This document shows positions 22,827 to 50,600 of a stretch of 64,000 bases of DNA, piece after piece. The position numbers and the translations under genes were made by a program. The notes under the pieces are model-generated. The model was given only the letters and a program-made list of their open reading frames with translations, was not told where the DNA came from and did not search any database. Where the stretch lies: positions 744,001 to 808,000 of the forward strand of contig JAEBUN010000016.1 in NCBI GenBank assembly GCA_023014365.1, given 5' to 3'. The DNA comes from Lepiota brunneoincarnata. Its lineage: Eukaryota; Basidiomycota; Agaricomycetes; Agaricales; Agaricaceae. Position 1 is the stretch's first letter, and every line of letters begins with the position of its first letter.

Positions 22827-23249
22827 TGTTACCTGGGTTAGGGGTTTGCTCTTGAGTAGCATGGGGTTCGACACAGGATGTCTATACAGAATTGATCCTG
22901 TCCTACTAAGCATGACTTGGAGACGATGGAGCACTATAGTCCAGCTGGTTTAGAGGCAAAGAGTTATAGGAGGCAAGAACTGTATAACATGAAGATAAGG
23001 ATACAAGGTAATGTACTGTATCCTTATATACTTCTAAGTGTGGCTGTACTCCTACTATAATAGTCCAGACCAGAGTAACTGTGAGTCAGAGATAAGAAAC
23101 ATGAGGCATATACTAAGAATAGTCCTTCTGATGTACACTACTGATGGTTTTATAGTGACATGGGAATGTAAACTAAAAATAACCATCCTTCTGATAAGAC
23201 TTCTGATAACATTAGGTCTGTTTCTAAAGTTGTTTTCCATTACAACTCA

Positions 23250-23933
23250 TTAGTTTCCTTCTTCCAGGTATTCGGCTAGGTAATTTGGTTTGTAGTAATT
23301 GACTTGAGGTTGGTTGGTGGAGTCTGGTCGAGGGGGAATGATGGGAGAAAAGGTGGGGGTAGGAGTTCTGTGGAGATCAAGTACAGCGGTGGTTTCTGGG
23401 GAAGGGGGTTGTCCTGGATAGAAAATGTCATATAGGAGATGTCTGAAATGAGGACTTTCTATTCTTTCTTCTGGTGGGGTGGTTGGGTTTCCTTCAGAAG
23501 GAACCACATGGTTCTCCTGTAATGTTTGATTTGGCAACGTCGTTGTAACATTCTTCATAGTAGTCATCATTGGTAAGGTCAATGTATCAATGATGAGTTG
23601 TGGGAGTGGTCGAGGGACAGGTTGTTGAATTTCTGGAGTAGGAGGTGTGTCAGGTCTTCTGAGCTGGACATTTGGTCCGTTTATGGCAGGGTTGGAAAAC
23701 TGCACAGTGGGGGCATTGATACTTGATGCAGTTGTAAGAGTAATGCCCTGGGGCATATTGTTTGCACCCGAGGCAGGCAAATTGGGGGTAGTCCATAGCC
23801 CAGTGTCTGGTATGTCTGCATTGGATGCAGACTGATCTGTTGGTGGTTTGGGGGTTGGTTCGTGAGTGAATGGGATTGGGGGAGTTCCGAACTGGGATGT
23901 GGTTATCAGTGATGGTGTGGGTGGTGTTCCCAT
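23250..23933 (-). CDS. B1 ORF4, Pro/Thr-rich, overlaps ORF3 in +1 frame
   Basis: 227 codons ending 39 nt before the 3' LTR. Pro/Thr/Ile-rich, with a conserved C-terminal block (RIESPHFRHLLYDIFYPGQ, PPRPDSTNQPQVNYYKPN). The same frame is open in B2 (38545-39075) with the same +1 offset from ORF3. No signal peptide, membrane helix or known domain is visible. It could be reached by frameshifting or as a separate protein. Confidence 0.55.
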   Translation of the reverse strand: MGTPPTPSLITTSQFGTPPIPFTHEPTPKPPTDQSASNADIPDTGLWTTPNLPASGANNMPQGITLTTASSINAPTVQFSNPAINGPNVQLRRPDTPPTPEIQQPVPRPLPQLIIDTLTLPMMTTMKNVTTTLPNQTLQENHVVPSEGNPTTPPEERIESPHFRHLLYDIFYPGQPPSPETTAVLDLHRTPTPTFSPIIPPRPDSTNQPQVNYYKPNYLAEYLEEGN

Positions 23934-24699
23934 TGGGGGTGAGATGTCTGAAAGGGTTTCTGAGATTGGTGGGCTTCTTTCCCTTATTGGGAGTGGTGGT
24001 AGTGATAGTGGTAGGGACTGTCATGGCAATGGGGGTGATGGTTGTGGTGGGGGGCTGCAAGGTATGTACCTCATTTTGTTTGGGTAAATTCTTTAACACC
24101 TTGGACATGAGGCTCGATCTTGAGTGGAGAAGTTGCTCGAGTGATTCTGCCCAGGCCTGTTGCGTATTGTACGCAGTAGCGAGAGCCTTAGTCTGTCGTA
24201 CGTGGTGGGTATAGTCATACCAGAGTTGTCGGTCGTATTCCAAAATTGGAGAGTGTTCCAATTTATTTGTAAGGGCTCTGTCGGTGGCAGCCTTGCGCAG
24301 ATCTCCATCAGAAGGGTGATCTGGTCCATGTTGTCGTACTCCAGCTGTATGGTATCTAAGGGAGGTGGCTGGGGTGATTGTTGGTTCTGGGGTGGTGTTG
24401 GGATCAGGGGTCTCATCTCTGAGGGAGGCGTAAGCAGTGGCGAAGGTGTGAGAGGGGGTGTTGGTAGATGGGGCTGGAATGGGAGTTGTTTGAAGTGTTG
24501 TATGTTCAACATTTGCATTATTAATGATGATGATAGAGGATGATGAGGAAGTTGGGGAGGGTATTGTGGAGTAAGGGGGAGTGGTTTGAGGGTGATTGAG
24601 GTTGAGGTTCATGGGCATCTTTTTAAGTATGTTTGGTGTGAGAGCAAAGCTGTCTTCGGTAGGTTCTGGTGGGTTTCTGATCTTTCTGGGGAATTTCAT
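23650..24699 (-). CDS. B1 ORF3: Pro/Thr-rich protein with three C-terminal zinc knuckles
   Basis: 349 codons downstream of the chromodomain, overlapping the pol end by 77 nt. The N-terminal half is Pro/Thr-rich. A conserved helical middle (YDRQLWYDYTHHVRQTKAL, AWAESLEQLLHSRSSLMSKV) follows. The C-terminus has three Cys/His knuckles in 55 residues: CIQCRHTRHWAMDYPQF (fourth ligand Tyr here, Cys in B2), CLGCKQYAPGHYSYNC and CPHCAVFQPCHKRTKC. Such an ORF is not part of the standard gag-pol plan. It resembles a second nucleocapsid-like protein in the place where some gypsy elements carry env. It is open although pol and gag of this copy are full of stops. Homologous to 37719-38675. Confidence 0.65.
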   Translation of the reverse strand: MKFPRKIRNPPEPTEDSFALTPNILKKMPMNLNLNHPQTTPPYSTIPSPTSSSSSIIIINNANVEHTTLQTTPIPAPSTNTPSHTFATAYASLRDETPDPNTTPEPTITPATSLRYHTAGVRQHGPDHPSDGDLRKAATDRALTNKLEHSPILEYDRQLWYDYTHHVRQTKALATAYNTQQAWAESLEQLLHSRSSLMSKVLKNLPKQNEVHTLQPPTTTITPIAMTVPTTITTTTPNKGKKPTNLRNPFRHLTPNGNTTHTITDNHIPVRNSPNPIHSRTNPQTTNRSVCIQCRHTRHWAMDYPQFACLGCKQYAPGHYSYNCIKYQCPHCAVFQPCHKRTKCPAQKT

Positions 24700-27600
24700 G
24701 AGCTTCTTTATACTCGGTTAGGTATTCTTCGGCATTTGTGCAGAGTGTTTCATTGGTGATCCACTCATTCTCCATGTGGGAGTATCCTTTCCATTTGACA
24801 TAGTATTGAACTTTTCCATGATATTGGTGGTGATTTAGAATAGCTTCTATTTCATATTCTTCTTCTTCATTGATGATGTCTGGTAGTGGTGGAGTCAGAT
24901 GAGATCCGTATGCTTCTGTTTCAGTATATGGGGTTGAAAGATTTTGGTGGAATACTGGGTGTATCTTCCATTTGATCAGGAGTTTTAATTTGTATGTTAG
25001 TGGTGATAAGACTTCTGAGATAAGGAAAGGTCCTAGTTGTTTTGGGGATATTTTGTTGGAGATGAAGGGGAGTTTGAGGTTCTTGGCTTCTAGCCATACT
25101 TTTTGATGTGTTTCAAGGGGTTTGACAGTTCTTCTGGTTCTTTGTTTCATAATATCAGTGGAGAGTTGATGTGGTGCATGTGCTTCTTTTCTGGTGTCAT
25201 CAAGGAGTCTGATGCGTTTGTCTACTGATGGAAAGTTTGATCTTTCCATTACCATGGGTATCGGTGGAGGGTTGTATCCCATGATTAGTTCAAATAGGGA
25301 TTTCTGCCTTGAGGCATGGATTTTGGAGTTGTGTGCAAATTTGGCAATAGGAAGGGTTTCTGACCAGTCAAGGGGGTTTCTGGTGCAGTATATGGCAAGG
25401 TAGGTTTCAATTTCCTGGTTGTATCATTTGGTGGAACCATCTGTCTGGAGGTGGTATGCAGTTGAGAATGCTTGTTGGATGTTTAGGCATTTGGCTAGCT
25501 CTCAGAGGGAGTTGGCGGCAAATCTGGGGTCTCAATCTGATATGATCTTGTCAGGTAATCTGAACCTGGTGAAGACTTTTTCTATTAATAGTCATCCGAT
25601 GTCATCGGCATTTGATCAATCTGAGGTTGGGATGAAAATTACCCCCTTCATAAGGCTGTGGTCCACCACAGATAATATTGCATTATGGCTGGTGCTAGGT
25701 GGTAGACCAGTGATAAGATTCCATGAGATTTGAGCAAATGGGTGTTTGGAAGATGATGGTGGGATCAGTTGAGTCAGTGTGTGATCCAGTCTGTGTATGA
25801 TTTTGTGTTGTTGACATTCTAGACAGCCTTTGACGTAATTCTTTATGAATGTTGACATTCCTGGCCAATACACTTCTTTCTTGGCAAGGTGGTATGTTTC
25901 CTGTTCTCCAGGGTGGCCATGTGTAGGGTGGTCATGGTATCTTGTGATGACATTGCATCTGAGTTAGAGGTCTTCTGGAATGATGACACATTCTTGGAAC
26001 ATGAGGAGTGGACTGTTTGAGGTCAGGACTGTTCTGAAGTCTTTATCAGTGGCATTAGGGTGAGTTTCCTTCAGGAGTTTGAACACTTTGGTGGTTCTAG
26101 CATCATATTTGGGTGATTCCGTGATTCTTTCTTGGAGTTCCATATCGACAGTGGTGATAAAGAGGTGTTCTGGGAGTACTGTGATCAGGTTTTGATCTTC
26201 TATGTCACCTGTGGTGACAAAGAGGTTATTTGGAAGCATAGTGTTATGATCTGTGCTCCTTCTGTATCCGAGGATAACTGGAGATGGCCTTCAATCACTC
26301 TACAAGGTGTCTGAGACGGTTGGCCTTGCAGAGCTTAGTGGATTGCACTCAATGAGATAACAAGGGAACATGTCAAGTTAAGGCAGAGAGGCTTAATGAT
26401 CACTGTTAACAAGATTAAAGCTTGAGGCTTTAATCTCTACTTGTACAGGCCTTATATACCTATGAGATACTATATACTCATTATAGGTTATTGGGCTGTT
26501 CTAGTTGTCCTGCACAGTCTTGACCATGATGCGCATCCTAGCTGATGGCATCCTACTGTTATTTATATATTACAATGAGTCAGTGTTCTTGTTCTCCATT
26601 CCACTGCTGTGCAATGTTCCATCACTTTCCTCTGACTCATAATTCTCTTCTCCCGATTCTATCTCCATGGATTCTCCTCCATTCTCAGTCTCCACTCTCT
26701 TGGTGCTTCCATCTGTATTGGAGGTTGGATCAGTTGATCCATGGCTATCTTCTTCATCCTCGGGGTATTCTAGAATATCCTCCAGAGTTATCTCCATTCC
26801 TGCTTCTCTTGCCAGATCCTGCATGGCATTATAATATTCCCCTTCTTCATCTTCATACTCCTGCACTCGCAACCGGTCTGTGGTTTCCTGTACCCATCTT
26901 GTAAAGTTGAATAGTTGTTCTTGTTCCTCTCAATCTGGGCTATTCATAACACATAGTGATGTCTTCATTATCATTATCCTCATCAGGGATGTGGTCTGGA
27001 CGTCTTGATAGAGCATCTGGTGCAGGGATCTTTGATCCTGGGATGTGTTCTAATTTAAAATTGTAGTTGGTGAGGGTTTGGACCCATCATGCTTGTCGGT
27101 GGTTGATTGTCTGGGGTTTACACAAGTATGTGAGGTTTTGGTGGTCTGTTCTGATGCAGACTGTATGAGGGCTGCCAAGGAGGTAATGATGCCATTCTTC
27201 AAGGGCTCAGATAATAGCAAGGAGTTCCCTATTGTAGATGTCGTAGTTGCGTTCCGCTGGTCTGAACATCTTTGAGTAGAATGATACAGGTTTCCATATT
27301 CCATTGATGTTGTGTTGGTATAGGACAGCTCCTGATGCGAATTTGGAAGCATTGGCTTCTATTTTGGAGGGTTTTGTGGAGTTGGGCATGAGGAGTATCA
27401 GTTCTTTTAAGAATTTGTTCTTGAGCATTTCGAACCCTTTTTGTTGTTCTTCTTTCCATTCAAATTTGTTTGATTTGGATAGGAGTTGGTCAAGGGGTTT
27501 GGTATGGTGGGAGTAGTTGCAGATGAACTTTCAGTAGAAGTTACAGAATCCGATGAATTTCCAAATATGTCGGACTGTTTTCAGCACTGGCCAGTCTTCT

Positions 27601-29087
27601 ATTCCCTTGAGTTTTCCAGGGTCCATTTTGATTTCGTCAGGCATGATAATCATGCCAAGATATTCAAGTTGTTGCTTGTTGAACTTGCATTTTTCTGTTT
27701 TGAGGTAGAGATCATTTTCCTGCAGGATTTGCAGTACTTTTTCTGTAAGTCAGTTGGTTTCCTCTTGGGTTTTACTGTAGATTAGTATATCATCCATATA
27801 GATGATGATTCCTCCTTTCTCCATTATTTCAGAGAATAGCGTGTCTATCATGTGTTGGAATGTCATGGGACTGTTGCAAAGTCCGAAAAACATCACAGTT
27901 GGTTTGAAAAGACCCATAGGAGTCTTGAATGCTGCTTTCCATTGATTGCCATCTTTGATTCTGATGTTATTGTATCCTAGTCAGATGTCAAGCTTAGTGA
28001 AGTACTTAGCTCCTTTGAGTTTGTCCATGATAGAGAAAATCATGGGAATTGGGTAGGCATTTTTGATGGTGTGATCATTTAGATAATGATAGTCTTGGCA
28101 GGGTTGGAGGTCTCCTCCTTTCTTGGCAACAAAGAAGAAGGGTGATGCCATAGGGGATTTTGAGGGGCAGATGTACCCTTTTCGGAGGTTTTCATCTATG
28201 AATTCCTTTAGTGCTTTTTCTTTGGCAGGTGCCACTTGATAAGGCTTCATTGATTTTGCTTTGAATGTCAGTTTTAGTTCAATTTCGTGATCAAACGTTC
28301 TTGATGGTGGGAATCATTTGGAGGCTTTCTTATTGAATATTTTAGCCCATCAGGCAAATCTTCAAGGGATCTTGGGTGGTTCCTTGTTTGATTCCAGTTG
28401 TTTTCCTTTTTGGTTTGCTGATTTTGTCAGGTTGTGTTGCTCATTGTGGAGCATCATGGCATGTGTCGCTTTGGCATTTACTTTTAATGGGGTTAGAAGC
28501 ATTGGATTCATTTCTCTTTCTAAAGAGAAGGTGTTGAGGTCAACATTTGACAGGTTGACATATTCTTCAGGGTTTTCCTCAGGTTGAGAAGTCTTTCCAG
28601 CCATAATGTCCATGGTGATGGAGTTGAGTTTGACAGGTCGTTGTAGGGTTCTGAGGAGTTTGGAAAAGTCCTGGTGATCAATTTGGGGTTTCCAAGAGAA
28701 TATCTTGGTTTTCCAGTTGATGTTGGGATTGTATTGTTCCAACCAGGGGAATCCAATGATGAGATCTTTCTCACTGGTATTTGTGACATATGCTTCTAGC
28801 ATGCAATCTCTTCCATTGATGATGGTTCTGATCTTGATGTATTCATGGATCTTGCCATGTTGATTGTCAGTTCCGTCAACATTGCTGAGGGGAATTGGTT
28901 GGTCCAGCCATTTAGTTTGATAACCATGTCGTTCAACAACTTTGTGGGAGATAAAGTTCCCTTGGGCTCCTGAGTCTATCAGGGCAGTGATGGCCACAGG
29001 TTTTGATGTCCATTCACTCCAAATCTCAATGGGTAAGAAAAAGGATTGTTTATTTGGGGATAGTTGTAATTGTACAGAGTTTATCAA
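24623..29087 (-). pseudogene. B1 pol remnant: PR, RT, RNase H, integrase, chromodomain
   Basis: Protease ITALIDSGAQGNF (intact Asp) and FPWLEQYNPNINW in 28362-29087. RT in 27981-28250 (KGYICPSKSP, FFFVAKKGGDLQPCQDY), then a TGA before LGYNN, and YMDD near 27790-27815. RNase H 27050-27440. The integrase zinc module (NYVKGCLECQQHK) and first Asp (SWNLITGLPPS) are at 25616-25873. The chromodomain at 24623-25282 is YEIEAILNHHQYHGK..YYVKWKGY.  A solo LTR (26242-26951) splits RNase H from integrase. Several stops are at CGA sites. Confidence 0.88.
26242..26951 (-). mobile_element. Solo family-A LTR in B1, TSD CATAG
   Basis: 710 bp, plus-strand ends TGTTATGATCT and CATAACA, flanked by CATAG at 26237-26241 and 26952-26956. 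Removing it restores continuity with the B2 pol sequence at the same point (ITMLPNNLF). It carries the U3 frame (26947-26570) with a TGA at codon 6 but otherwise open to the DSL end. Confidence 0.92.
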
Positions 29088-29146
29088 GAAAATGTCCTTC
29101 TGAGTTCTGGAATGTGCAGGGGCACATCGATTGACAGTGTTCCTTT

Positions 29147-30950
29147 TTAAAAATCCTGGAATGGATGCATCTCCAGATCCTTGGCTAGCATGGAGTGGAG
29201 TTCTTGTTGTAACTTGGGATTGAGTTCATCAACCATTTGGCGCATCTGAGATGCAACTTCTGCAACAGCAAGGGAGTATTTGCATTGAGGTGATGGCTGG
29301 TTGTTCCGATTTTGGAATCCAGGACAAGTGTTTTGTTGTCCAGAAAAAGGATGGTTGGGGTTTCTTGCAGGGTGAGGGGGGTTGGTACACATTCCTGGGA
29401 AGTGTCTGGCTAGTGGTGGTTGTGGGCATTTATTGACCCAATGGTCTTTAGCTCTGCATCGGAAGCATTCTTGGTTCTGATATGATTTCATTTGTTGTCC
29501 AGTGACAATGGCATCTAACTCCAATGGTTCTTGTGTGGAGTCTTCTTTGGTATATTCTGGTTGTGGAATCTCAGGATAAGGATCTTCAAATCCTTCTTCT
29601 ATTGCGGCATGGTCTATTCCCATGGCATGTGGGTCTCATGGAGTGAAACATGGAGCGTTACTCCTTTGGTAGAATTGTGCATAGGGCACATTGTTGTTTG
29701 GATGGCTTGGTCCACAGTTGGGCTGGTATTGGTTCCTCTGAGGGAACGTGTTTCTGGGGGGTACCATAAAGGGCATTGATTCTGTGGAAGTTGTCATCGA
29801 GTTTGTTGGCTTGGGTATACCAAGCGGCGATGGTTGTCGGAGGGTTCTCTGATTTGTTGATTTTCATGGCAATATGGCAGTTGATTGCCTTGTGGTATAG
29901 ATTGATGAGTGTGCAATCTTTGTTAAGTCTGGATTGACGGATGAGTTCCTTGAATTGAGCATTGAACTCTGTCATCAGTTTGCCTGCTTGGTGCAGGGTC
30001 TGAAGTCTGGTGTGTGCATATGCATGTTCATCTGCCAGGGTGAAGTCAGCTCTAAGCTGGGCAGTGAAGTTGTCCCATGGCTCCATGGCTATGGGTTGTC
30101 CTGCTTGGGTTTGGGCGTTCCTCTCATGGAGGTATTGTCTGGCCCAGGCTCAGGCATCTCCTGATTGCATTGTCAAAAGAACGAATAAGGTTCTGGCAAG
30201 GTTGGTGTTGTAGGTAGTCACGTTAGCAAGCATGTAACCTTCACATTGGAAGATCCAGTCTTCAAAGAGTCTTCTGGTTCCATCGAAGGTGATGGGTTTG
30301 AGGAGTCCTAACTCCTTTGGCGTTTGTGCTGTGGCCATTATTTGCATTTGTCCAGGTAGCGGCAGTGGTGGTATTGGTGGCTGCAGTGGTTGTATGGGTG
30401 GTGCCAGTAGGGTTAAGGGTTGTACTGGTGCTGGTAATGTGGGTGGTTGAGGATCGGGTTCCGATTGGTTGTCATCGGTGATGTAGATGTCTGAGTCATT
30501 GTCTACTGGGGGGGTTCTTCCTTGGTTTACTGTGTATTTGTGATGCGTAAGTAAGTTTTCCTCTGATTGGGAAAGTTCTCTTGGTTGTTTGAGGGCATAT
30601 TTGAGTTTTTGAAGTTCAAAGTTGTTTAGTGGGTCTACTTTGGCATGATATTCTTTGGCTTGTTTGTGTTTTCTTTCTTCTCATTTGTAATGTTCTTTTA
30701 ATTCTCTTTTGTGTTGTATTCTTTGTCATTCTGCTAGTTCTTCAGCAAAACTCATTCGAGTGCATGTGGATGTTGATGCTTTTGGAGCAGGTGAGTTGAA
30801 TGGAGATGGAGGATAGAATGGAGATGGTGTTTGAGTGGGTATAGGGTTTCTTCTGGGATCCGGATTTTGGGTTCCTGATCTGGAGATTCTACTTTTCAAT
30901 TTGGGAGGAGGTGATGGAGTTTCTCGGGCCAAGAACTTCTTGGGAGGCAT
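29147..30950 (-). pseudogene. B1 gag remnant
   Basis: Homologous along its length to the intact gag of B2: MPPKKF start at 30950, a capsid part with LLKPITFDGTRRLFEDWIFQ, one knuckle (CFRCRAKDHWVNKC) and the HPFQDF end at 29147. Broken by stops after QSGDA and at other points. It has one copy of the segment duplicated in B2. Confidence 0.85.
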
Positions 30951-30962
30951 GGTGGTAGTTGT

Positions 30963-31205
30963 CTAGCAATTGATTATCACTAGAAGGATGAAAAATTGGG
31001 TTGCAATGATGGAGATTCCTGAATACAGGTTCCACAATCTGACAACACAGCAGTGACAAGGGCACGTGATGCGTTCAAGTTCTAGGGTGATTATTCGATA
31101 GGCAATGAGGGTGGCAGTGGAGGTGACAATGAAAATGAGTAGGTAAGCCAGGTCTTCTGGCAGGGAGAGGTTGAGGGATGTAGTGATGGCTACATAGAGG
31201 GGTGG
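30963..31205 (-). pseudogene. B1 leader ORF (hydrophobic), split by B2
   Basis: From the B2 insertion point to the stop just before gag, this frame encodes two hydrophobic segments around a Cys cluster (CPCHCC), homologous to 31689-31949. Joining across the GGTGG duplication brings in the missing start from 39498 onward in the same frame. Confidence 0.6.
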
Positions 31206-31385
31206 TGTTATCAAAATTCCATCAGAAGGACAGTTATGTTTAGCTATATTTCCCATGTCACTATGAAACTATCAGTAGTGAACATCAGAAGGACGATTCT
31301 TACCACATGCCTCATGTTTCTTATCTCTGACTCATAGTTACCTTGGTCCGGACTATTATAGTAGGAGTACAGCCACACTCAGAAG

Positions 31386-31430
31386 TATATAAGAATACAG
31401 TACAATACCTTGTATCCTTATCTTAGTGTT
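31386..31430 (+). promoter_or_regulatory. B2 LTR promoter: TATA box and predicted RNA 5' end
   Basis: TATATAA at 31386-31392; the motif TATCTTAGTGTT at 31419-31430 begins 27 nt downstream. The latter is exactly complementary to the site after the LTR, so it is taken as the start of the transcript. The start site itself is inferred. Confidence 0.55.
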
Positions 31431-31590
31431 ATACAGTTCTTGCCTCCTATATCTCTTTGCCCTTAAAACTGGCTGGACTATAGTGCTCCATCGTCTCCAA
31501 GTCATGCTCAGTAGGATAGGACCAAGTCTGTATAGACATCCTGTGTCGAACCCTGTGCTACTCAAGAGCAAACCCCTAACCTGGGTAACA

Positions 31591-31603
31591 AAACACTAAG
31601 ATA
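31591..31603 (+). promoter_or_regulatory. B2 primer-binding site, self-priming type
   Basis: AAACACTAAGATA directly follows the 5' LTR; 12 of these bases (31592-31603) are the exact reverse complement of LTR positions 31419-31430. B1 has the same pair (39606-39617 with its LTR). No tRNA 3'-end complement is present. This is the arrangement known for Tf1-type self-primed elements. Confidence 0.65.
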
Positions 31604-31688
31604 CTCTGCTGCTTATCTCTTGCTCGCCCTCTACTCTGCTCTGCTCTACTGATGTACTGAACATGTCGAGGTACCCTGGTCGTTCAAA

Positions 31689-31949
31689 ATGATGTGTGAA
31701 AGAAAACCGCCTCTCTGTATAGCCATCGCTATGTCCCTCAACCTCTCCCCACCAGAAGACCTGGCTTACCTACTCATTTTCATTTTTACTTCCACCTCCA
31801 CCCTCATTGCCTACCAAATCATCACTCTAGAACTCGAATGTATCACATGCCCCTGTCACTGTTGCGTCATCAGATCGTGGAACCTATACTCAGGAATATC
31901 CATCATTGCAACCCAATTTTTTATTCTTCTAGCGATAATCAATCGCTAG
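31689..31949 (+). CDS. B2 leader ORF: small hydrophobic protein before gag
   Basis: 86 codons, stop 12 nt before the gag start. Two hydrophobic segments (LAYLLIFIFTSTSTLIAY and ISIIATQFFILLAII) flank a conserved Cys-rich part (ITCPCHCCVI). The homologous frame in B1 differs mostly by conservative changes. No known family recognised. It may be a membrane miniprotein, a regulatory upstream ORF, or an accident of sequence; conservation between only two related copies is weak proof. Confidence 0.45.
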   Translation: MMCERKPPLCIAIAMSLNLSPPEDLAYLLIFIFTSTSTLIAYQIITLELECITCPCHCCVIRSWNLYSGISIIATQFFILLAIINR

Positions 31950-31961
31950 ACAACTGCCACC

Positions 31962-33863
31962 ATGCCTCCGAAGAAGTTCTCAGCCCAAGAAACTCCATCA
32001 CCTCCTCCCAAATTGAGAAGTAGAATCTCAGGATCAGGAACCCAAAACCCAGATCCCAGAAGAAATCCTATCCCCACTCAAACACCATCCCCATTTTATC
32101 CTCCATCTCCATTCGACCCGCCCACTCCAAGTACATCAACACATACACAAACAAGTTTTGCTGACAAACTAGCAGAACGACAGAGAATACAACAAGAAAG
32201 AGAATTAAGGGAACACTACAAACAAGAAGAAAGAAGATGCGAACAAGCTGAAAAATACCATGCTAGAGTAGATCCATTAAATGGCTATGAACTTCAAAGA
32301 CTTGAATATGCCCTCAAACAACCAAGAGAACTTTCCAAATCGGAAGAAAACTTACTCACATGCCACAAGTATGCAGTAAATCAAGGAAGAACTCCCCCAG
32401 CAGATAACGACTCAGACGTCTATATAACAGACAACAACCAATCGGATCCCGATCCACAACCACCCGCATTACCTGCGCCAACTGTACCCTTAGCCCTACC
32501 GGCTCCTCCTCTACAACCAACACAACCCCTATCACCACCACCGCCGCTGCCACCTGGACAATTACAAATAATGGCCGCCGCACCTACCCCAAAGGAGTTA
32601 GGACTCCTCAAACCCATCGCCTTCGATGGAACCAGAAGACTCTTTGAAGATTGGATCTTCCAATGCGAAGTTTACGTGCTCACCAATGCGACCACTTACA
32701 ACACCGACCTTGCTAGGACTCTATTTGTCCTTTCAACAATGCAATCAGGAGATGCCCGAGCCTGGGCGAGACAATACCTCCACGAAAGAAACGCCCAAAC
32801 CCAACAAGGGCAACCCATAGCCATGGAATCATGGGACAACTTCACTGCCCGGCTCAGAGCTGACTTCACCCCGGCAGATGAACATGCGTACACGCATACC
32901 AGGCTTCAAACCCTGCACCAAGCAGGTAAACCAATGACTGAGTTCAACTCTCAGTTCAAGGAACTTGTCCATCAATCTGGACTAAACGAAGATTGCACCC
33001 TGATTGATCTATACCGCAAGGCAATCGACCGCCGTATTGCCATGAAGATTGACAAATCGGAAAACCCTCCGACAACCATCGCTGCCTGGTACACCCAAGC
33101 AAACAAACTCGACGACAACTTCTGTCAAATCAATGCCCTCTATGGCACCCCCAGGAACACGTTCCCCCAAAGAAACCAATATCAATCCAACCACGGACCA
33201 AGCCATCCAAACAACGACAACTTCTGTCGAATCAATGCCCTCTATGGCACCCCCAGGAACATGTTCCCCCAAAGAAACCAATATCAATCCAACCACGGAC
33301 CAAGCCATCCAAACAACAATGTACCCTACACACAATTCTACCAAAGGAGTAACGCTCCACGTTTCACCCCACGAGACCCACACACCATGGAAATAGACCA
33401 TGCAACAGTAGAAGAAGGATTCGAAGACCCTTACCCCAAAATACCCCAACCGGAATATGCCAAAGAAAACCCCGCTCAAGAACCATTGGAGCTAGATGTC
33501 ATTGTCACCGGACAACAGATGAAATCGTACCAAAACCAAGAATGCTTCCAATGCGGAGCCAAAGATCATTGGGTCAGCAAATGCCCTCAACCACTGCCAG
33601 CTAGACGCTTCCCAGGAATGCGTACTAATCCCCCTCGCCCTGCAAGAAACCCCAATCGTCCCTTCCCTGGACAACAAAATACCTGTCCCGGATTTCCAAA
33701 CCGGAACGCACAACAATCACCACAACGCAAGTATTCCCTTGCCGTCGCAGAAGTTGCATCTCAGATGCGCCAGATGGTCGATGATCTTGATCCTGAACTC
33801 CAACAAGAACTCCACTCCACACTAGCCGAGGACCTGGAGATGCATCCATTTCAGGATTTTTAA
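31962..33863 (+). CDS. B2 gag, intact
   Basis: 633 codons from ATG 31962 (MPPKKFSAQE). Pro-rich N-terminus; a highly charged helical part (residues about 65-130, AERQRIQQERELREHYKQ); a Pro-rich linker; a capsid-like domain (from about 210: LLKPIAFDGTRRLFEDWIFQ, LRADFTPADEHAYTHTRLQ); a 34-residue tandem duplication near 385-453; and one zinc knuckle (CFQCGAKDHWVSKC, CX2CX4HX4C) near 525. Ends HPFQDF. Forms the virus-like particle and packages RNA in this family. The only long gag in the window without stops. Confidence 0.9.
   Translation: MPPKKFSAQETPSPPPKLRSRISGSGTQNPDPRRNPIPTQTPSPFYPPSPFDPPTPSTSTHTQTSFADKLAERQRIQQERELREHYKQEERRCEQAEKYHARVDPLNGYELQRLEYALKQPRELSKSEENLLTCHKYAVNQGRTPPADNDSDVYITDNNQSDPDPQPPALPAPTVPLALPAPPLQPTQPLSPPPPLPPGQLQIMAAAPTPKELGLLKPIAFDGTRRLFEDWIFQCEVYVLTNATTYNTDLARTLFVLSTMQSGDARAWARQYLHERNAQTQQGQPIAMESWDNFTARLRADFTPADEHAYTHTRLQTLHQAGKPMTEFNSQFKELVHQSGLNEDCTLIDLYRKAIDRRIAMKIDKSENPPTTIAAWYTQANKLDDNFCQINALYGTPRNTFPQRNQYQSNHGPSHPNNDNFCRINALYGTPRNMFPQRNQYQSNHGPSHPNNNVPYTQFYQRSNAPRFTPRDPHTMEIDHATVEEGFEDPYPKIPQPEYAKENPAQEPLELDVIVTGQQMKSYQNQECFQCGAKDHWVSKCPQPLPARRFPGMRTNPPRPARNPNRPFPGQQNTCPGFPNRNAQQSPQRKYSLAVAEVASQMRQMVDDLDPELQQELHSTLAEDLEMHPFQDF
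33120..33323 (+). repeat. 102-bp in-frame tandem duplication in B2 gag
   Basis: Two nearly identical 102-bp units (starting 33120 and 33222) encode INALYGTPRN..FPQRNQY-type repeats of 34 residues. B1 has a single unit, so the duplication is private to B2 or its recent ancestor. Confidence 0.85.
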
Positions 33864-33949
33864 AAAGGAATGCTGTCAACTGATGTGCCCCTGCACGTTC
33901 CAGAACTCAGAAGGACATTTTGTACTCTCACTCCCAGAAGGACATTTTC

Positions 33950-36900
33950 TCAATAAACTCTGTACAATTATGACTATCCCCAAATAAACGATCCCTTTTC
34001 TTACCCATCAAGATTTGGAGTGAACAGACATCAAAACCTGTGGCCATCACTGCCCTGATAGGTTCAGGAGCCCAAGGGAACTGCATCTCCTATAAAGTCA
34101 TTGAACGACATGGTTATCAAAACAAATGGCTGGACCACCCTATTCCTCTCAGCAACATTGACAGAACTGACAATCAACATGGCAAGATCCATGAATACAT
34201 CAAAATCAGAACCATCATCGATGGAAGAGATTGCATGCTAGAAGCATACATCACAAACACTGGTGAGAAGGACCTCATCATCGGATTTCCCTGGTTGGAA
34301 CAATACAATCCCAACATCAACTGGAAGACCAAGACATTCTCTTGGAAACCCCAAATCAATCACCAAGACTTTTCCAAACTCCTCAGAACCCTATGACGAC
34401 CTGTTGAACTCAATTCCATCGCCATGGACATAATGGCTGGAAAAACCTCCCAACCCAAGGAAAACCCTGAAGAATACGTCAACCTGTCAAACGTTGATCT
34501 CAATACCTTCTCTTTAGAAAGAGAAATGAACCCAATGCTTCTAACCCCATTAGAAGTAAATGCCAAAGTGACACATGCCACAACACTCCACAATGAGCAA
34601 CACAACCCAACAAAATCGGCAACCCAAAAAGGGAAACAACCAGAATCAAACAAAGAACCACCCGAGATTCCTCAGAGATTTGCCCGATGGGCTAAAATAT
34701 TCAACAAGAAAGCCTCCGAACAATTCCCACCATCAAGAATGTTTGATCACGAAATCAAACTAAAACCGACATTCAAAGCAAAATCAATGAAACCTTATCA
34801 AGTGGCACCTGCCAAAGAAAAAGCATTAAAAGAATTTATAGATGAAAACCTCCGAAAAGGGTACATCTGCCCCTCAAAATCCCCTATGACATCACCCTTC
34901 TTCTTTGTTGCCAAGAAAGGAGGAGACCTCCAACCCTGCCAAGACTATCATTATCTAAATGATCACACCATCAAAAATGCCTACCCAATCCCCATGATTT
35001 CCTCTATCATGGATAAACTCAAAGGAGCTAAGTATTTCACTAAGCTCGACATCTGCCTAGGATACAATAACATCAGAATCAAAGATGGCGATCAATGGAA
35101 AGCAGCGTTCAAGACTCCCATGGGTCTTTTCGAACCAACTGTCATGTTTTTCGGACTCTGCAATAGTCCTGCAACATTCCAACACATGATGGACACATTA
35201 TTCTCCAAAATAATGGAGAAAGGAGGAATCATCATCTACATGGATGATATCCTAATCTATGGTAAAACCCAGGAAGAAACCAACTGACTTATGGAAAAAG
35301 TACTGCAGATCCTGCAGGAAAACAACCTCTATCTCAAAATGGAGAAATGCGAGTTCAACAAACAACGACTTGAATATCTCGGCATGATCATCACACTAGA
35401 CAAGATCAAAATGGATCCTGGAAAACTCAAGGGAATAGAAGACTGGCCAGTGCCAAAAACAGTCCAGACACATTCGGAAATTCCTCGGATTCTGTAACTT
35501 CTACCGGAAGTTCATCCACAGCTACTCCCACCACACCAAACCCCTGAACCAACTCCTTTCCAAATCAAACAAATTCAAATGGAAAGAAGAACAACAGAAA
35601 GCATTTGAAATGCTCAAAAACGAATTCCTAAAAGAACCGGTACTCCTCATGCCTGACTCCACAAAACCCTTCGAAATAGAAGCCAATGCTTCCAAATTTG
35701 CATCAGGAGCTGTCCTGTATCAACATGACATCAACGGAATACGGAAACCCGTATCATTCTATTCAAAGACATTTGGACCAGCGGAACGCAACTACGATAT
35801 CTACGACAGGGAACTCCTCACTATTATCCAAGCCCTCGAAGAATGGCGCCACTACCTCCTTGGCAGCCCTCACACTATCCGTATCAGAACTGACCACCAA
35901 AACCTCATGTACTGGCGCAAACCTCAGAAAATCAACCACCGACAAGCATGATGGGTACAGACCCTCACCGACTACAACTTCAAATTAGAACATGTCCCAG
36001 GATCAAGGATTCCTGGACCAGACGCTCTATCAAGACATCCAGACCACATCCCTGATGAGGATAACGACAACAAAGACATCACCATGCTTCCAAACAACCT
36101 TTTTGTCGCCACCACTGACATAGAAGATCAAAACCTGATCACAATACTCCCAGAACATCTCTTTATCGCCACCATCGATATGGAACTCCAAGAAAGAATC
36201 ATGGAATCACCCAAATACAATGCTAGAACCACCGAAGCATTCAAACTCCTGAAGGAAACCCACCCTAACGCCGCCGATAAAGACTTCGGAACAGTTCCAA
36301 CCCCAAATGGTTCACTCCTCATGTTCCAAGAACATGTCATCATTCCAGAAGACCTTCAACTCAGACGCAATGTTATTGCAAGATACCACGACCACCCTAC
36401 ATGTGGCCACCCTGGAGAACAGGAAACATACCGCCTTGCCAAGAAAGAAGTTTATTGGCCAGGAATGTCGATGTTCATAAAGAACTATGTCAAAGGCTGT
36501 CCAGAATGTCAACAACACAAGATCATACGCAGACCGGACCATGCACCAACTCAACCGATCCCTCCATCATCCTCCAAATGCCCATTTGCCCAGATCTCAT
36601 GGGATCTTATCACCGGTCTACCGCCTAGCGCCGGCCATAACACAATATTGTCCATGGTGGACCACAGCCTTACGAAGGGGGTAATTTTCATCCCAACATC
36701 AGATCGATCAAACACCGATGACATCGGACTGATTATTAATAGAAAAGATCTTCACAAGATTCGGATTACCTGACAAAATCATATCAGATCGAGACCCCAG
36801 ATTCGCTGCCAACTCCCTCCGACAACTGGCCAAACATCTAAACATCCAACAGGCATTCTCAACTGCATACCATCCCCAGACAGATGGTTCCACCGAACGA

Positions 36901-37702
36901 TACAATCAGGAAATCGAAACCTACCTCGCCATATACTGCACCAGAAACCCTCTTGACTGGTCAGAAACCCTCCCTATTGCTGAATTCACACACAACTCCA
37001 AAATACATGCCTCAAGGCAGAAATCCCCATTTGAACTAATCATGGGATACAACCCTCCACCGATACCCACGGTAATGGAAACATCAAACTTTCCATCAGT
37101 AGACGAAATGCATCAGACTCCTTGATGATGCCAGAAAAGAAGCACATGCGGCACATCAACTCTCCGCCGATATTATGAAACAAAGAACCAGAAGAACTGT
37201 CAAACCCCTTGAAACACATCAAAAAGTATGGCTAGAAGCCAAAAACCTCAAACTCCCCTTCATTTCCAACAAAATATCCCCAAAACGACTAGGACCTTTC
37301 CTTATCTCAGAAGTCTTATCACCACTCACCTACAAACTAAAACTTCCAATCAAATGGAAAAATACACCCGATATTCCACAGAAACCTTCTAACCCCATAT
37401 ACCGAAACAGAAGCATATGGATCTCATCCAACTCCACCACCACCAGACATCATCAATGAAGAAGAAGAATATGAAATAGAAGCTATTCTAAATCACCGCC
37501 AACACCACGGAAAACTCCAATACTACGTCAAATGGAAAGGATACTCCCACACGGAGAACGAATGGATCACCGATGAAACACTCCACGCAAACACTGAAGA
37601 ATACTTAACTGAGTATAAAGAAGCTCATGGAATTCTCCAGAAAGAACAGGAACCCACCAGAACCAACCAAAGACAACTTCGCTCCCACACCAAACCTACT
37701 TA
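33950..37702 (+). pseudogene. B2 pol, mostly open but interrupted
   Basis: Protease reads LIGSGAQGN: the catalytic Asp codon is GGT (34061-34063). A TGA follows at 34396. RT is open from 34424 to 35287 with KGYICPSKSP, LDICLGYNN, FFGLCNSPATFQ and IIIYMDDILIYG (intact YMDD), then a TGA where CGA is expected. RNase H with IEANASKFASGAVLYQ and TDHQNL. The integrase zinc module (H..H, KGCPECQQHK), D (SWDLITGLPPS) and E regions (YHPQTDGSTERYN) are split by a frameshift near 36735. The chromodomain (YYVKWKGYSHTENEW) lies near 37500-37600, after a further frame change. Ends at TAA 37700-37702. Confidence 0.88.
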
Positions 37703-37718
37703 AAGATGCCCATGAACC

Positions 37719-38675
37719 TTGACCTCACTCGCCCCCAAACTACTCCCCCTTTTTCAACAACACCCTCACCAACTTCCTCATCATCTTCCAGTCGTCATCA
37801 TAAACAATGCAAGTGTCGAACATACTACACTTCAGACAACTCCCGTTCCAGCCCTGTCTCCCTACACCCCTTCTCACACCTTCGCCACAACATACACCTC
37901 CCTCAGGGACGAGACCCCCGACCCCAACAACACCCCAGAACCAACAGCCACCCCAGCCACCTCCCTTAGATACCATACAGCTGGAGTACGATCATATGGA
38001 CCAGATCACCCTTCTGATGGAGATCTGCACAAGGCTGCCACTGACGGAACCTTTACAACTAAATTGGAACATACTTCAATTTCAGAATACGACCGACAAC
38101 TCTGGTACAACTATACCCACCACATACGACAGACTAAGGCTCTTGCTACTGCGTACAATACGCAATGTGCCTGGGCAGAATCACTCGAGCAACTTCTCCA
38201 CTCAAGATCGGGCCTCATGTCCAAGGTGTCGAAGAACCTACCCAAACGAGATGAGGTACATACCTCGCAGCCCCCCACCGCAACCATCCCCACCACTACC
38301 ACGATGACCACTGCCACAATCATCACCACCATCCCCAACAAGGGAAGAAAGCCCACCAGTATCAGAAATCCCTTCAGACTTCTCACCCCCACCAAGAACA
38401 CCACCCACACCGTCGCCAGTAACAACGTCCCGATTCGGAACTCCCCCAATCCCGTTCACTCACAAACCAACCCCCAAACCACTGACAGATCAGTCTGTAT
38501 CCAATGCAGACACACAGGACACTGGGCCATGGATTGCCCCCAATTTGCCTGCCTCGGATGCAAGCAATATGCCCCAGGGCATTACTCATATGACTGCATC
38601 AAGTATAGATGCCCCCACTGCGCCATTTTCCAACCACGCCATAAACGGACCAAATGCCCAAGTCGAAAGACTTGA
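37719..38675 (+). CDS. B2 ORF3: three zinc-knuckle protein
   Basis: 318 codons in this frame. The true N-terminus by comparison with B1 is MPMNLDL at 37706, one frame away, so a single-base change near 37790 has split it. Conserved helical middle (YDRQLWYNYTHHIRQTKAL) and three complete knuckles at the C-terminus: CIQCRHTGHWAMDC (CX2CX4HX4C), CLGCKQYAPGHYSYDC and CPHCAIFQPRHKRTKC (both CX2CX6HX4C). Follows pol by 16 nt. Function unknown; RNA or DNA binding is inferred from the knuckles. Confidence 0.65.
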   Translation: MTSLAPKLLPLFQQHPHQLPHHLPVVIINNASVEHTTLQTTPVPALSPYTPSHTFATTYTSLRDETPDPNNTPEPTATPATSLRYHTAGVRSYGPDHPSDGDLHKAATDGTFTTKLEHTSISEYDRQLWYNYTHHIRQTKALATAYNTQCAWAESLEQLLHSRSGLMSKVSKNLPKRDEVHTSQPPTATIPTTTTMTTATIITTIPNKGRKPTSIRNPFRLLTPTKNTTHTVASNNVPIRNSPNPVHSQTNPQTTDRSVCIQCRHTGHWAMDCPQFACLGCKQYAPGHYSYDCIKYRCPHCAIFQPRHKRTKCPSRKT

Positions 38676-39075
38676 TATGCCCCTTATTCCAGAAATCCAG
38701 CAACCCGTCCCTCAACCACTCCCACAACTCATCATAGATATATCAACCTCACCCACAACAATTATTACAAGGAATGCTACGACGATGTGGCCAAATCAAA
38801 CATTACAGGAGAACCATGCGGTTTGTTCTGAAGAAAACCCAACCACCCCACCAGAAGAAAGAATAGAAAGTCCCCACTTCAGATGCCTACTATACGACAT
38901 TTTCTATCTGGGACAACCTCCATCCCCAGAAACCACCACTATACTCGATCTCCACAGAACTCCCACTCCCACTTTCTCTCCTGTCATTCCTCCCAGACCA
39001 GACTCCACCGACCAAACTCAGATTGAATATTACAAACCAAATTACTTAGCCAAATACCCAGAAGAAGGAAATTAA
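38545..39075 (+). CDS. B2 ORF4, +1 overlap with ORF3
   Basis: 176 codons ending 37 nt before the 3' LTR; overlaps ORF3 by 131 nt with the same +1 offset as in B1. Shares the RIESPHFRCLLYDIFYLGQ block and the YYKPNYLAKYPEEGN end. Pro-rich. No recognised domain. Confidence 0.5.
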   Translation: MPASDASNMPQGITHMTASSIDAPTAPFSNHAINGPNAQVERLDMPLIPEIQQPVPQPLPQLIIDISTSPTTIITRNATTMWPNQTLQENHAVCSEENPTTPPEERIESPHFRCLLYDIFYLGQPPSPETTTILDLHRTPTPTFSPVIPPRPDSTDQTQIEYYKPNYLAKYPEEGN

Positions 39076-39497
39076 CAAGTTGTATGGAAAACAACTCTAG
39101 AAACGGACCTAATGTTATCAAAATTCCATCAGAAGGACAGTTATGTTTAGCTATATTTCCCATGTCACTATGAAACTATCAGTAGTGAACATCAGAAGGA
39201 CGATTCTTACCACATGCCTCATGTTTCTTATCTCTGACTCATAGTTACCTTGGTCCGGACTATTGTAGTAGGAGTACAGCCACACTCAGAAGTATATAAG
39301 GATACAGTACAATACCTTGTATCCTTATCTTAGTGTTATACAGTTCTTGCCTCCTATATCTCTTTGCCCTTAAAACTGGCTGGACTATAGTGCTCCGTCA
39401 TCTCCAAGTCATGCTCAGTAGGACAGGACCAAGTCTGTATAGACATCCTGTGTCGAATCCTGTGCTACTCAAGAGCAAACCCCTAACCCGGGTAACA

Positions 39498-40003
39498 GGT
39501 GGTTTTCTTTTGTACATCATTTTGAACGATCAGAGTACCTCAACACATTCAGTATATCAGTAGAGCAGAGTAGAGTAGAGGGTGAGCAAGAGATAAGCAG
39601 CAGAGTATCTTAGTGTTTTGTTACCTGGGTTAGGGGTTCGCTCTTGAGTAGCACAGAGTTCGGCACAGGATGTCTATACAGACTTGGTCCTGTCCTACTA
39701 AGCGTGACTTGGAGATGACGGAGTACTATAGTCCAGCTGGTTTAGAGGCAAAGAGTTATAGGAGGCAAGAACTGTATAACACTAAGATAAGGATACAAGG
39801 TAATGTACTGTATCCTTATATACTTCTAAGTGTGGCTGTACTCCTACTATAATAGTCCAGACCAGAGTAACTGTGAGTCAGAGATAAGAAACATGAGGCA
39901 TATACTAAGAATAGTCCTTCTGATGTACACTACTGATGGTTTCATAGTGACATGGGAATGTAAACTAAAAATAACCATCCTTCTGATAAGACTTCTGATA
40001 ACA
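39498..40003 (-). mobile_element. B1 leader start and 5' LTR beyond the B2 insertion
   Basis: After the GGTGG duplication the sequence is the reverse complement of the leader seen in B2 at 31591-31720. The B1 5' LTR then lies at 39619-40003. This proves that B2 inserted into the B1 leader rather than beside B1. Confidence 0.9.
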
Positions 40004-47614: not shown

Positions 47615-50600
47615 TTCCCCCCATCAACTCATTCCCTTGTGAAAAATATCCATGATGCAAGGCACCATACTGGTCCTGATCATACTCCTGGTCATGTGGG
47701 AAATCCTGTGACCTCTTTCCACTCCAAGACCTCATCCCCCATTGCTGGTTCCTCTAAGGGACCTTTTGAATCTATGAAGGCCTGAGCCTGCACATCTTAC
47801 AATATATACAAGGACAAAGGAGGCTAGACAACTTGTAGAGTTTACTCCAAGTGGGAAGGAAAAAATGCTGTTGCCATCTGTAGAGAAAATGTTTGAGGAT
47901 GATGATGAGGACAATATATCTGGAATGGAAGAGGATAATGATGTTTACATGTGCATAGACTGATTCTCTCAGAAAAATCTCACTGACAGTGGATTACAGT
48001 CCCAAGTTCAACAAGGAGGACCCCACACTTTGGGGAACTCCTCCATACACCAGCACCCATGTAGGTGCTTTGGACTATAGTAATTACTGTTCCTGTATGC
48101 CTTTCATCATTAGTAACAAATGTGGCATGTCATGTGATCTGTCTAAATGCAAAAAATGTAAGGGAAAGAAGAAAGCACTTGAGCCCAATAGCACTGAATG
48201 GATCTTAGATTCAGGTGCCTCCCATCATTTTTCAGGGAGTTTAGAGGACTTCAATGATCTCAAAGAAGGCAATTTCAGACCGGTTAGTACTGCCAACAAA
48301 GATGCTTCATTGATGATTAAAGGAATTGGTTCCATCCTCTTGTGTCATCAGATCCAGCATGGTGACAAATCAGAAGTCATGATTACATGCTTGACATCTG
48401 TTTATTTTTGTCCTGGACTCACAATGAGACTACTTTCTGTGGGAACCCTGCTCTGCACAGGATGGAAAGTAGAAGGAAATGCAGATCAGATAACCTTCCA
48501 TGATATGCAAGAGAAAGAGGTATTACAGGCTCATCCTTCCCTATTGAGCCCTACCATCTTTTGGGTAGAAGGAAAATGTGTTCTTCAAGAAAGCATGTCC
48601 TCCCTGAAGGGACCCTCTGCAGAGACCTGGCATCATTGACTCAATCATGCTTTGGAAGAAGTACTCAGACATATGACTGAAAATACTTGGGGTTGTTTAC
48701 CATTCAGTATCCAAAAGGATCCCACATGTCCTGATTGCACTTTGGGTAAGCAGCATCTGAAAACATTTATAGAATCTCATAAACAAGCATCATCATTCCT
48801 TGAATTGATCCATACAGATCTTCTAGAACTTCCAGTGCTCTCATACCATAAATGTAAATGGGTGATTACATTCTTAGATGACTTCTCTTCTCATGCTTGG
48901 ATAGTACTCCTTAAAGCCAAGTCCAATGCCTTCTATGCATTCTGTAACTTTAGAGCTAATGTTGAGTTACAATTTAAGAAGCCAATCACATGCTTACACA
49001 GTGATTGTGGTGGAGAATATATGTCATCAGAATTTCTGAACTTCCTAAAACAACATGGTATTACACACAAGACCAGTGCACCCAATGTGCATCAACAAAA
49101 TGGTTGTGTGGAACATTTGAATAGAATGTTAATGGATAAGACATGTGCCATGCAACTAGAAGCTTGTCTTCCCCCCTCCTATTGGGAGTTTGCACTAGAT
49201 ACAGCCATTCATGTCTATAATCGCACACCTATGTCTTGCTTCCCTGATCAAAATGGCAATCAGTAAGAACCCAGATATTTCTTACCTTAGAGTATTTGAG
49301 CATACATTCTCCTCCCACAATGGGACAACAAATTGGTACCTAAATCTGAGCTTATGCTCTTTGTGGGATATGAGTATGCAACAAAATCCTATCAGTTTAT
49401 TAGATTCAACCAAGGCAATGTTATTTATGTTTCTCCCACTGCCCAGTTCAATGAAGGACTTTTTCCCAAGTACCAAGAGTTCTCACAAAAGAAACAAGTT
49501 GAGTTTGATCCTCCTCTTCCCAATTTTGACCAATTTCCAGTCCCAGATTTGCCACAAGGTGGACTGCCATCTCCACCATCAATTCCTCCTTCTAATAATA
49601 ATCCTCCTAGTACTGACAATTCTACTGATTCGCAAACACCCCCAGATACTCCTGGAGCTATGAGTCCAGAAGCACCTAGTGAGCCTTCCCAATCTCCATC
49701 TCCTCTAGCTCCACCACCTCCTCCCAAACCAAGATGCTCTGCTAGGATTCCCAAACACATTCAGTGACTGGATTATGAGAGAAGTGATTTGCCCCAAGGG
49801 TGAAAGAGGAAAGACAAGGATGAAATTGATAAGGAGCAAGGTCCGTGATGGAATCCCATCTGCAGACATCCAGGTCATTTAGATAATCTGGAGGAAATTG
49901 AATGTGCTTGCCAACACATGTGGCATGCTCCTCCCAACTTCCCATGGGGACCAGGATATCCAGTTCAGGGGGAACCTAATGTTCAACAGCTTTGCCAAGA
50001 ACAAGAAGTTGATTTCATAGAGTTCTTGTTGGTACAACATACTGGGAAACAAGAAGGTGTACCTACCAATTTCCACAAATTAATGAAGCTTTCTAAAGCA
50101 TCACACAATGAATGGTTAAAGGCATAACTTGAGGAATTAGAAGCTTTAAAGAAGCACAAAGTATACAATTTGATGCCACTCCCAAAAGGTCAAAAGGCTA
50201 TCAAAAACTGTTGGGTTTTCACTGAGAAATCTGATGGCTGTAAACATGCTTGCTTAGTGGCAAAAGGTTTCTCTCAAATCAAAGGCATTGAGTTTGATGA
50301 GTTATTCTCTCCAGTTGTCTGCTATGAATCTACTAGAATACTTCTTGCATTAGCAGTGCTTGAAGACTGGGGTATTGAAGCATTAGACATAAAAACTGCC
50401 TTTCTTAATGGCAAACTGGATGAAGAAATCTATATGGAACAACTGGAGGGATTTTGCATTCCTGGTAAAGAGAATATGGTATGGAGGTTACGATGTGCAT
50501 TATATGGCCTTAACCAAGCCAGCTTAGCCTGGTGGTGCAAGATGTCTGAATCTATGCAGACACTTGGCTTACATTATGATAAAGTGCTGTATATCTGCCG

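Follow-up and report, generated by a model that had tools for sequence, protein, structure and literature searches.

The family B element and the frames at its 3' end

The window, by which we mean the whole 64,000-nucleotide stretch of Lepiota brunneoincarnata DNA analysed here (contig JAEBUN010000016.1), holds two copies, B1 and B2, of an LTR retrotransposon family that we call family B. B2 lies on the plus strand at 31206-39497, between a 5' LTR (31206..31590) with TG...CA ends and a 3' LTR (39113..39497), each of 385 nt and 98.2% identical, with a 5-nt target-site duplication, GGTGG, just before the first and just after the second. Its gag is a 637-codon open frame (31950..33863) with a Retrotrans_gag domain (Pfam PF03732, E 7.7e-11) and one CCHC knuckle, within which a 102-nt tandem duplication, 98% alike, is seen at 33112-33315. 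The pol gene (33974..37703) is broken over several frames in the open-frame list and carries a chromodomain at its end; in the copy used as alignment reference (L031) the 3' part of pol contains Integrase_H2C2 (2.2e-20), rve (7.9e-8) and Chromo (4.5e-13) domains. With an integrase followed by a chromodomain ending pol, a gag capsid domain and LTRs, family B is a Ty3/gypsy chromovirus.

The sequence-only reading had placed after the chromodomain of both copies a single ORF of 320-350 residues with three zinc knuckles, at 37719-39075 in B2. Frames and knuckle spacings are found in both B2 and B1, though both copies are damaged, and the B2 interval proves to be two reading frames joined. The knuckle frame, ORF3, is open at 37716-38675 in the open-frame list and stops at 38675; a separate frame is open at 38308-39075, and its part at 38676-39075, outside the knuckle frame, is that of the second candidate gene, ORF4. 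By homology with family members ORF3 of B2 spans 37706..38831 from ATG to stop, with a frameshift close to its beginning and a premature end at 38675, and less damaged copies run from an ATG matching 37706 to a stop matching 38829-38831. The three tandem CCHC knuckles (CX2CX4HX4C, CX2CX6HX4C and CX2CX6HX4C) occupy 38496..38657. ORF4 (37807..39075), overlapping in the +1 frame, is 422 residues long in less damaged copies and has one premature stop in B2; all these B2 features are on the plus strand.

The same two frames are present in B1, where the long frame past the chromodomain runs on the minus strand at 24717-23650 with the same three knuckle spacings. ORF3 of B1 extends over 23650..24618 as far as a premature stop and its first knuckle is broken, the last Cys being replaced by Tyr; ORF4 (23250..24518, minus strand) is interrupted by two stops (locus L039) and appears as frames 24608-24093 and 24020-23250. 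B2 seems to be nested in B1 across 22827-40003, with the GGTGG duplication at the joint: beyond B2 lie an apparent B1 5' LTR and part of its leader (40003-39498), and before it come the body of B1 and its 3' LTR (31205-22827). Elsewhere in the window, the frame at 47959-48639 contains DSGASHH, which we take to be a protease-like motif, and is perhaps a Ty1/copia fragment.

Copies in the genome and the predicted proteins

The genome (55.6 Mb in 95 contigs) was searched for further copies. Confinement of ORF3 to the two window copies would have spoken against the earlier proposal, but the B2 ORF3 query gave matches at 125 scored places, the best of 785 candidates; B1 ORF3 gave 114 scored matches of 895 candidates and ORF4 gave 99 of 583. 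Counted from the match lists, 48/125 places are stop-free in the match for ORF3, 49/99 for ORF4 and 31 for both, the ORF3 count being made with a query short of its last ~50 residues and in a way that leaves frameshifts undetected. Premature stops across the family, among the matches listed, are mostly TGA, a pattern suggestive of C-to-T decay once the copies had inserted. For comparison of copies we took 30 loci from each of the two ORF3 searches, leaving out L001-L008, and removed 5 duplicates from the 60, giving 55 copies from this single genome, aligned to L031. Since they were selected by ORF3 similarity, conservation of ORF3 may be inflated; that of the ORF4 tail is not.

In L031 ORF3 has 374 codons and ORF4, in the +1 frame, 422, with 1,022 nt in common. 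Both frames are delimited by well kept signals: the ORF3 start (ATG3) is present in 52/55 copies and its stop in 53/55, the ORF4 start (ATG4) in 51/55 and its stop also in 53/55. In the four that lack ATG4 an in-frame ATG lies one codon further upstream, giving an ORF4-frame ATG at +97 or +100 in 55/55, and the codon for Met64 of ORF4 is invariant in all copies with letters there. At 0.93 the conservation of ATG4 does not stand out, lying at the 63rd percentile among trinucleotides of the region. Thirty-seven of the 55 copies have no gap or insertion across the whole pair. Stops average 2.02 per copy in ORF3 and 1.47 in ORF4, compared with 16.20 in the third frame; ORF3 is stop-free in 11/55, ORF4 in 17/55 and the third frame in 0/55, and five of the 55 keep both ORFs without stops or indels. 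Antisense to ORF3, an open frame of ~107-114 codons is seen in minus-strand loci among L010-L038 and in both window copies, perhaps as a by-product of the sense codons.

The ORF3 product (374 residues, pI 8.8) begins with a Thr/Pro-rich N-terminus, followed by a middle that is probably helical, the three CCHC knuckles and then an acidic tail. All four ligands are kept in 50/55 copies for knuckle 1, 53/55 for knuckle 2 and 54/54 for knuckle 3, and the 12 knuckle residues are conserved at 98.9% on average, against 85.8% for the whole of ORF3. Knuckle 1 has the CX2CX4HX4C ligand spacing of zf-CCHC (PF00098), knuckles 2 and 3 have CX6H; the family cut-off of 20.8 bits is missed by the whole ORF3 (13.8) and by the knuckle piece (17.8), as it is by the element's own Gag knuckle (16.4). 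In a sequence search of the PDB knuckle 1 alone reached E below 0.1, aligning over 21-22 residues with the p10 nucleocapsid of MLV (1a6b, 1u6p; E 0.0046 with a single sequence, 0.038 with the alignment). ORF3 differs from p10 in that its knuckles number three, two of them of the longer CX6H spacing, and belong to a protein encoded apart from Gag. We think it likely, from these motifs, that ORF3 binds nucleic acid. The earlier proposal of a nucleocapsid-like or nucleic-acid-binding accessory protein therefore holds for ORF3, given its knuckle motifs and the purifying selection described below, with binding a prediction from the motifs; it had missed the second protein. As for the conserved helical middle of that proposal, structure prediction places a long helix at ORF3 127-176 at very low confidence (pLDDT of about 41-56), and the middle appears to be dual-coding, overlapped by ORF4.

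The ORF4 product (422 residues, pI 5.4) is acidic and 21% Pro; the frame covers nearly all of ORF3 and continues for ~80 codons further. Its best kept parts, among 16 copies, include the putative dual-coding zone and the last ~75 residues. It matches no family in Pfam or NCBIfam and no PDB entry by sequence; NCBIfam gave no match, and AlphaFold models of the two proteins (mean pLDDT 33 and 35) are too weak to interpret. No relative of either ORF was found at E <= 0.001 among 5,058 and 6,717 candidates from public genomes and metagenomes, a search that says little on fungi, nor was any found in viral contigs searched with the ORF3 alignment.

Purifying selection on both frames

As a neutral control we used singletons, variants private to one copy that should mostly postdate insertion, and set against them shared variants, present in at least three copies, which should mostly date from the replicating phase; the main counts leave out CpG-type transitions. 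In the ORF4-only tail (38832..39072, plus strand in B2; 241 nt) shared variants comprise 60 synonymous, 24 nonsynonymous and 2 stop changes in the ORF4 frame, against 20, 38 and 1 among singletons (p=3.7e-5), and the other two frames of the tail give no signal (p=0.12 and 0.82). The ORF3-only start shows the same excess (22 vs 7 shared against 9 vs 13 singleton, p=0.02), and across the whole overlap the ORF3 frame is constrained (p=1.4e-4), with no synonymous excess of shared variants in the ORF4 frame there (p=0.72). Pol, as positive control, gave p=2.6e-4, and the stretch past the tail, as negative control, p 0.16-0.59 over its three frames. When only transversions are counted, no comparison reaches significance (p > 0.25 for pol, the overlap and the tail).

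The overlap is not uniform, as the codon phase of shared variation, followed in 100-nt steps, shifts along it. Over ORF3 aa 1-66 shared variants fall mainly in ORF3 third positions (33/46; p=2.3e-7 against uniform, 0.099 against singletons). Over ORF3 aa 67-166, equivalent to ORF4 aa 34-133 (37907..38206, plus strand in B2, limits set by the 100-nt steps), there are 21 shared variants spread over the phases as 8, 6 and 7, and singletons are normal at 51. At ORF4 aa 134-166 the preference is for ORF4 third positions (11/16, p=0.011 against singletons), the next 200 nt show shared variants without phase, and in the stretch from the knuckles onward to the stop of ORF3 its third positions again dominate (66/86, p=1.2e-4 against singletons; 22/22 in aa 267-300). 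In the tail 64/86 shared variants are at ORF4 third positions (p=0.002 against singletons). The drop of shared relative to singleton variants in the ORF3 67-166 zone is significant against pol (p=0.0082), ORF3 1-66 (p=0.0012), knuckles-to-end (p=1.2e-5), the tail (p=2.9e-5) and the stretch past the tail (p=0.017), and its singletons are not reduced (0.163 per nt; 0.14-0.23 in other zones). With CpG variants counted the synonymous drop is weaker (ORF3-synonymous p=0.005, ORF4-synonymous p=0.21). Such a collapse of shared variation in every codon phase, where private mutations are normal, appears to be a signature of dual coding.

Divergence between 19 B1-like and 30 B2-like copies (49/55; L055, L056, L058, L063, L064 and L066 were left out) was measured as Nei-Gojobori dN/dS with codon bootstrap. 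Pol gave 0.23 [0.16-0.31] with dS 0.34. ORF3 gave 0.14 (dS 0.65) for codons 1-33, 0.34 (dS 0.31) for 34-66 and 0.16 (dS 0.67) for 267-374, from the knuckles to the end, so that the values of 0.14-0.16 at its two ends are far from the dN/dS near 1 that would have undermined the sequence-only reading. Its middle is not clearly constrained when taken alone, at 0.67 [0.42-1.10] with dS 0.16 [0.11-0.23] for 67-166, 0.60 for 167-200 and 0.62 for 201-266. ORF4 is at 0.45 [0.28-0.70] with dS 0.22 [0.14-0.32] for codons 34-133, 0.20 [0.10-0.40] for 134-166 and 0.13 [0.08-0.19] with dS 0.75 for the tail of ~80 codons; constraint is not clear for 1-33 (0.58 [0.30-1.15]), 167-233 (0.59 [0.37-1.04]) or 234-340 (0.85 [0.61-1.23]). 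The third frame gave 1.20 and, in the tail, 1.29, with dS 0.14-0.18. In the zone at ORF3 67-166 dS is thus 0.16 and 0.22 in the two frames, compared with 0.65-0.75 in the single-coded ORF3 start, knuckle-to-end stretch and ORF4 tail and 0.34 in pol. As constraint in one frame can lower dS in the other, the case for dual coding in this zone rests on total variation and phase jointly.

Judged by variation among its copies, the family is shown to have spread under purifying selection on both frames, with a zone of ~100 codons constrained beyond what one frame explains. Both frames are very probably coding. Because both are constrained, and because ORF3 67-166 bears the dual-coding mark, we propose that family B carries, in the interval from the chromodomain that ends pol to the 3' LTR, two extra overlapping genes, a reading to which we assign a probability of roughly 0.78.

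Expression, alternatives and implications

How the pair might be translated is suggested by the arrangement of start codons. ORF3 would begin by reinitiation just past the pol stop, or from a subgenomic mRNA, and ORF4 by leaky scanning to the next out-of-frame AUG, ~100 nt downstream of the ORF3 start. The pol stop and ATG3 are 2, 3 or 4 nt apart in 41/55 copies; this spacing, hence the register, varies among copies, so fusion of ORF3 to pol is not a constant property of the family. A comparable arrangement is the coupled stop-start of the SART1 non-LTR retrotransposon, which overlaps as UAAUG (PMC5972666); in both the start is beside the upstream stop, but in most family B copies 2-4 nt separate the two signals. 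From ATG3 up to the ORF4 start, none of the 55 copies has an ATG in any frame but that of ORF3; the ATGs that do occur there lie at +6 in most copies and at +66 in one, which fits leaky scanning. Reinitiation combined with leaky scanning is nevertheless put forward tentatively, as somewhat short of an even chance.

One alternative accepts ORF4 as real and places its start elsewhere than at the first AUG, either in an ORF3-ORF4 transframe protein made by +1 frameshifting or internally, for instance at the invariant Met64. It draws on the stretch encoding ORF4 aa 1-33, which is not clearly constrained in its own frame and in which ORF3 third positions dominate (11/17 shared variants). Against it speak the ORF4-frame ATG found at +97 or +100 in every copy and, within the region, the lack of any candidate intron whose GT, YAG and branch site are conserved, and no shift site was identified; moreover, ORF4 is already constrained at aa 134-166, 5' of the knuckles, so a switch of frame after the knuckles would be insufficient. 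We regard this alternative as unlikely. A lower probability still attaches to the low-variation zone being a cis-acting RNA element, for packaging or processing, in place of dual coding. In L031 the zone is predicted to fold slightly better than shuffled sequences do (z -2.16), but a control taken over the knuckles scores much the same (-1.74) and the fold is not distinctive. In addition, the zone is flanked by constrained ORF3 on either side and by constrained ORF4 on its 3' side, so both frames must run through it if the transcript is unspliced.

That ORF3 alone is a gene, and ORF4 open by chance in a sequence poor in T and G, is very improbable. When ORF4 codons were shuffled synonymously the ORF3 frame remained open in 0/2000 cases, so ORF3 is no by-product of ORF4. 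The reverse shuffle of ORF3 left the ORF4 frame as open as observed in 5-6% (P 0.05-0.06); the sequence being C-rich and T-poor, a long open +1 frame is only mildly unusual given ORF3, and openness alone does not prove ORF4. The lack of an ORF4 signal across the overlap as a whole also fits a chance frame. It is contradicted by the tail of ~80 codons outside ORF3, with its dN/dS of 0.13 against 1.29 in the third frame, and by the ORF4-phase variation at aa 134-166. Codon usage, as correlation with gag/pol, is 0.70/0.60 for ORF3 in the overlap, 0.25/0.41 for ORF4 in the overlap, 0.44/0.45 for the ORF4 tail and 0.43/0.48 for the third frame; this is at best a weak hint that ORF3 may be the older frame, because the third frame also exceeds ORF4. 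Equally implausible is a captured gag duplicate or decayed env, suggested by the location after pol and by one knuckle resembling that of Gag, as likeness to Gag is limited to 16 residues at the knuckle with nothing beyond, no capsid domain was found in ORF3 by Pfam domain search, ORF3 has three knuckles against one in Gag, and there is no hydrophobic segment, the highest 19-residue Kyte-Doolittle means in L031 being 0.59 (ORF3) and 0.54 (ORF4), a hydropathy scan that agrees with the lack of a membrane helix noted earlier.

Chromoviruses are usually described as gag-pol elements. Family B shares their gag, integrase, chromodomain, LTRs and 5-nt target-site duplication, and differs in adding what we read as two overlapping genes past the chromodomain. 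In another Ty3-type family of this genome the end of pol can be read at six loci (L070, L072-L076), whose ~0.7 kb after pol contains no knuckle motif and no frame longer than 138 codons. Besides family B, L070-L076 and further places point to two or more Ty3-type groups whose pol frames span ~1396 and ~1286 codons and in many cases contain no stop in the match.

A 3' region encoding two proteins in different frames is known from complex retroviruses (HTLV pX, HIV tat/rev). The likeness of family B to these is in the 3' two-frame layout. A third gene after pol is also found in bdelloid rotifer LTR retrotransposons, whose ORF3 products are env-like, GDSL, DEDDy, coiled-coil or transmembrane proteins; the word 'overlap' is absent from the main text of that report (PMC5408684). 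Our literature search, which covered subscription journals thinly, returned no report of such an overlapping gene pair, and the ORF3s reported there in LTR elements are of other kinds than the family B pair.

ORF3 could supply the element with a second nucleocapsid-like protein that binds RNA/DNA, and ORF4 could be its largely disordered, Pro-rich partner or a regulator. For transposable-element annotators the pair is a caution that models allowing one frame per locus miss genes. If our reading is correct the birth of overlapping genes could be studied zone by zone, in well over a hundred copies within one genome, since private mutations provide a built-in neutral control. A selected overlapping accessory pair would also represent a retrovirus-like complex layout inside an LTR retrotransposon. 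We lean, by a small degree, towards the broader view that a fungal LTR retrotransposon family has independently evolved a 3' accessory region like that of complex retroviruses, in which a nucleic-acid binder with three knuckles and a Pro-rich partner that resembles no known protein, sharing ~1 kb in two frames, would together serve replication or escape from host silencing.
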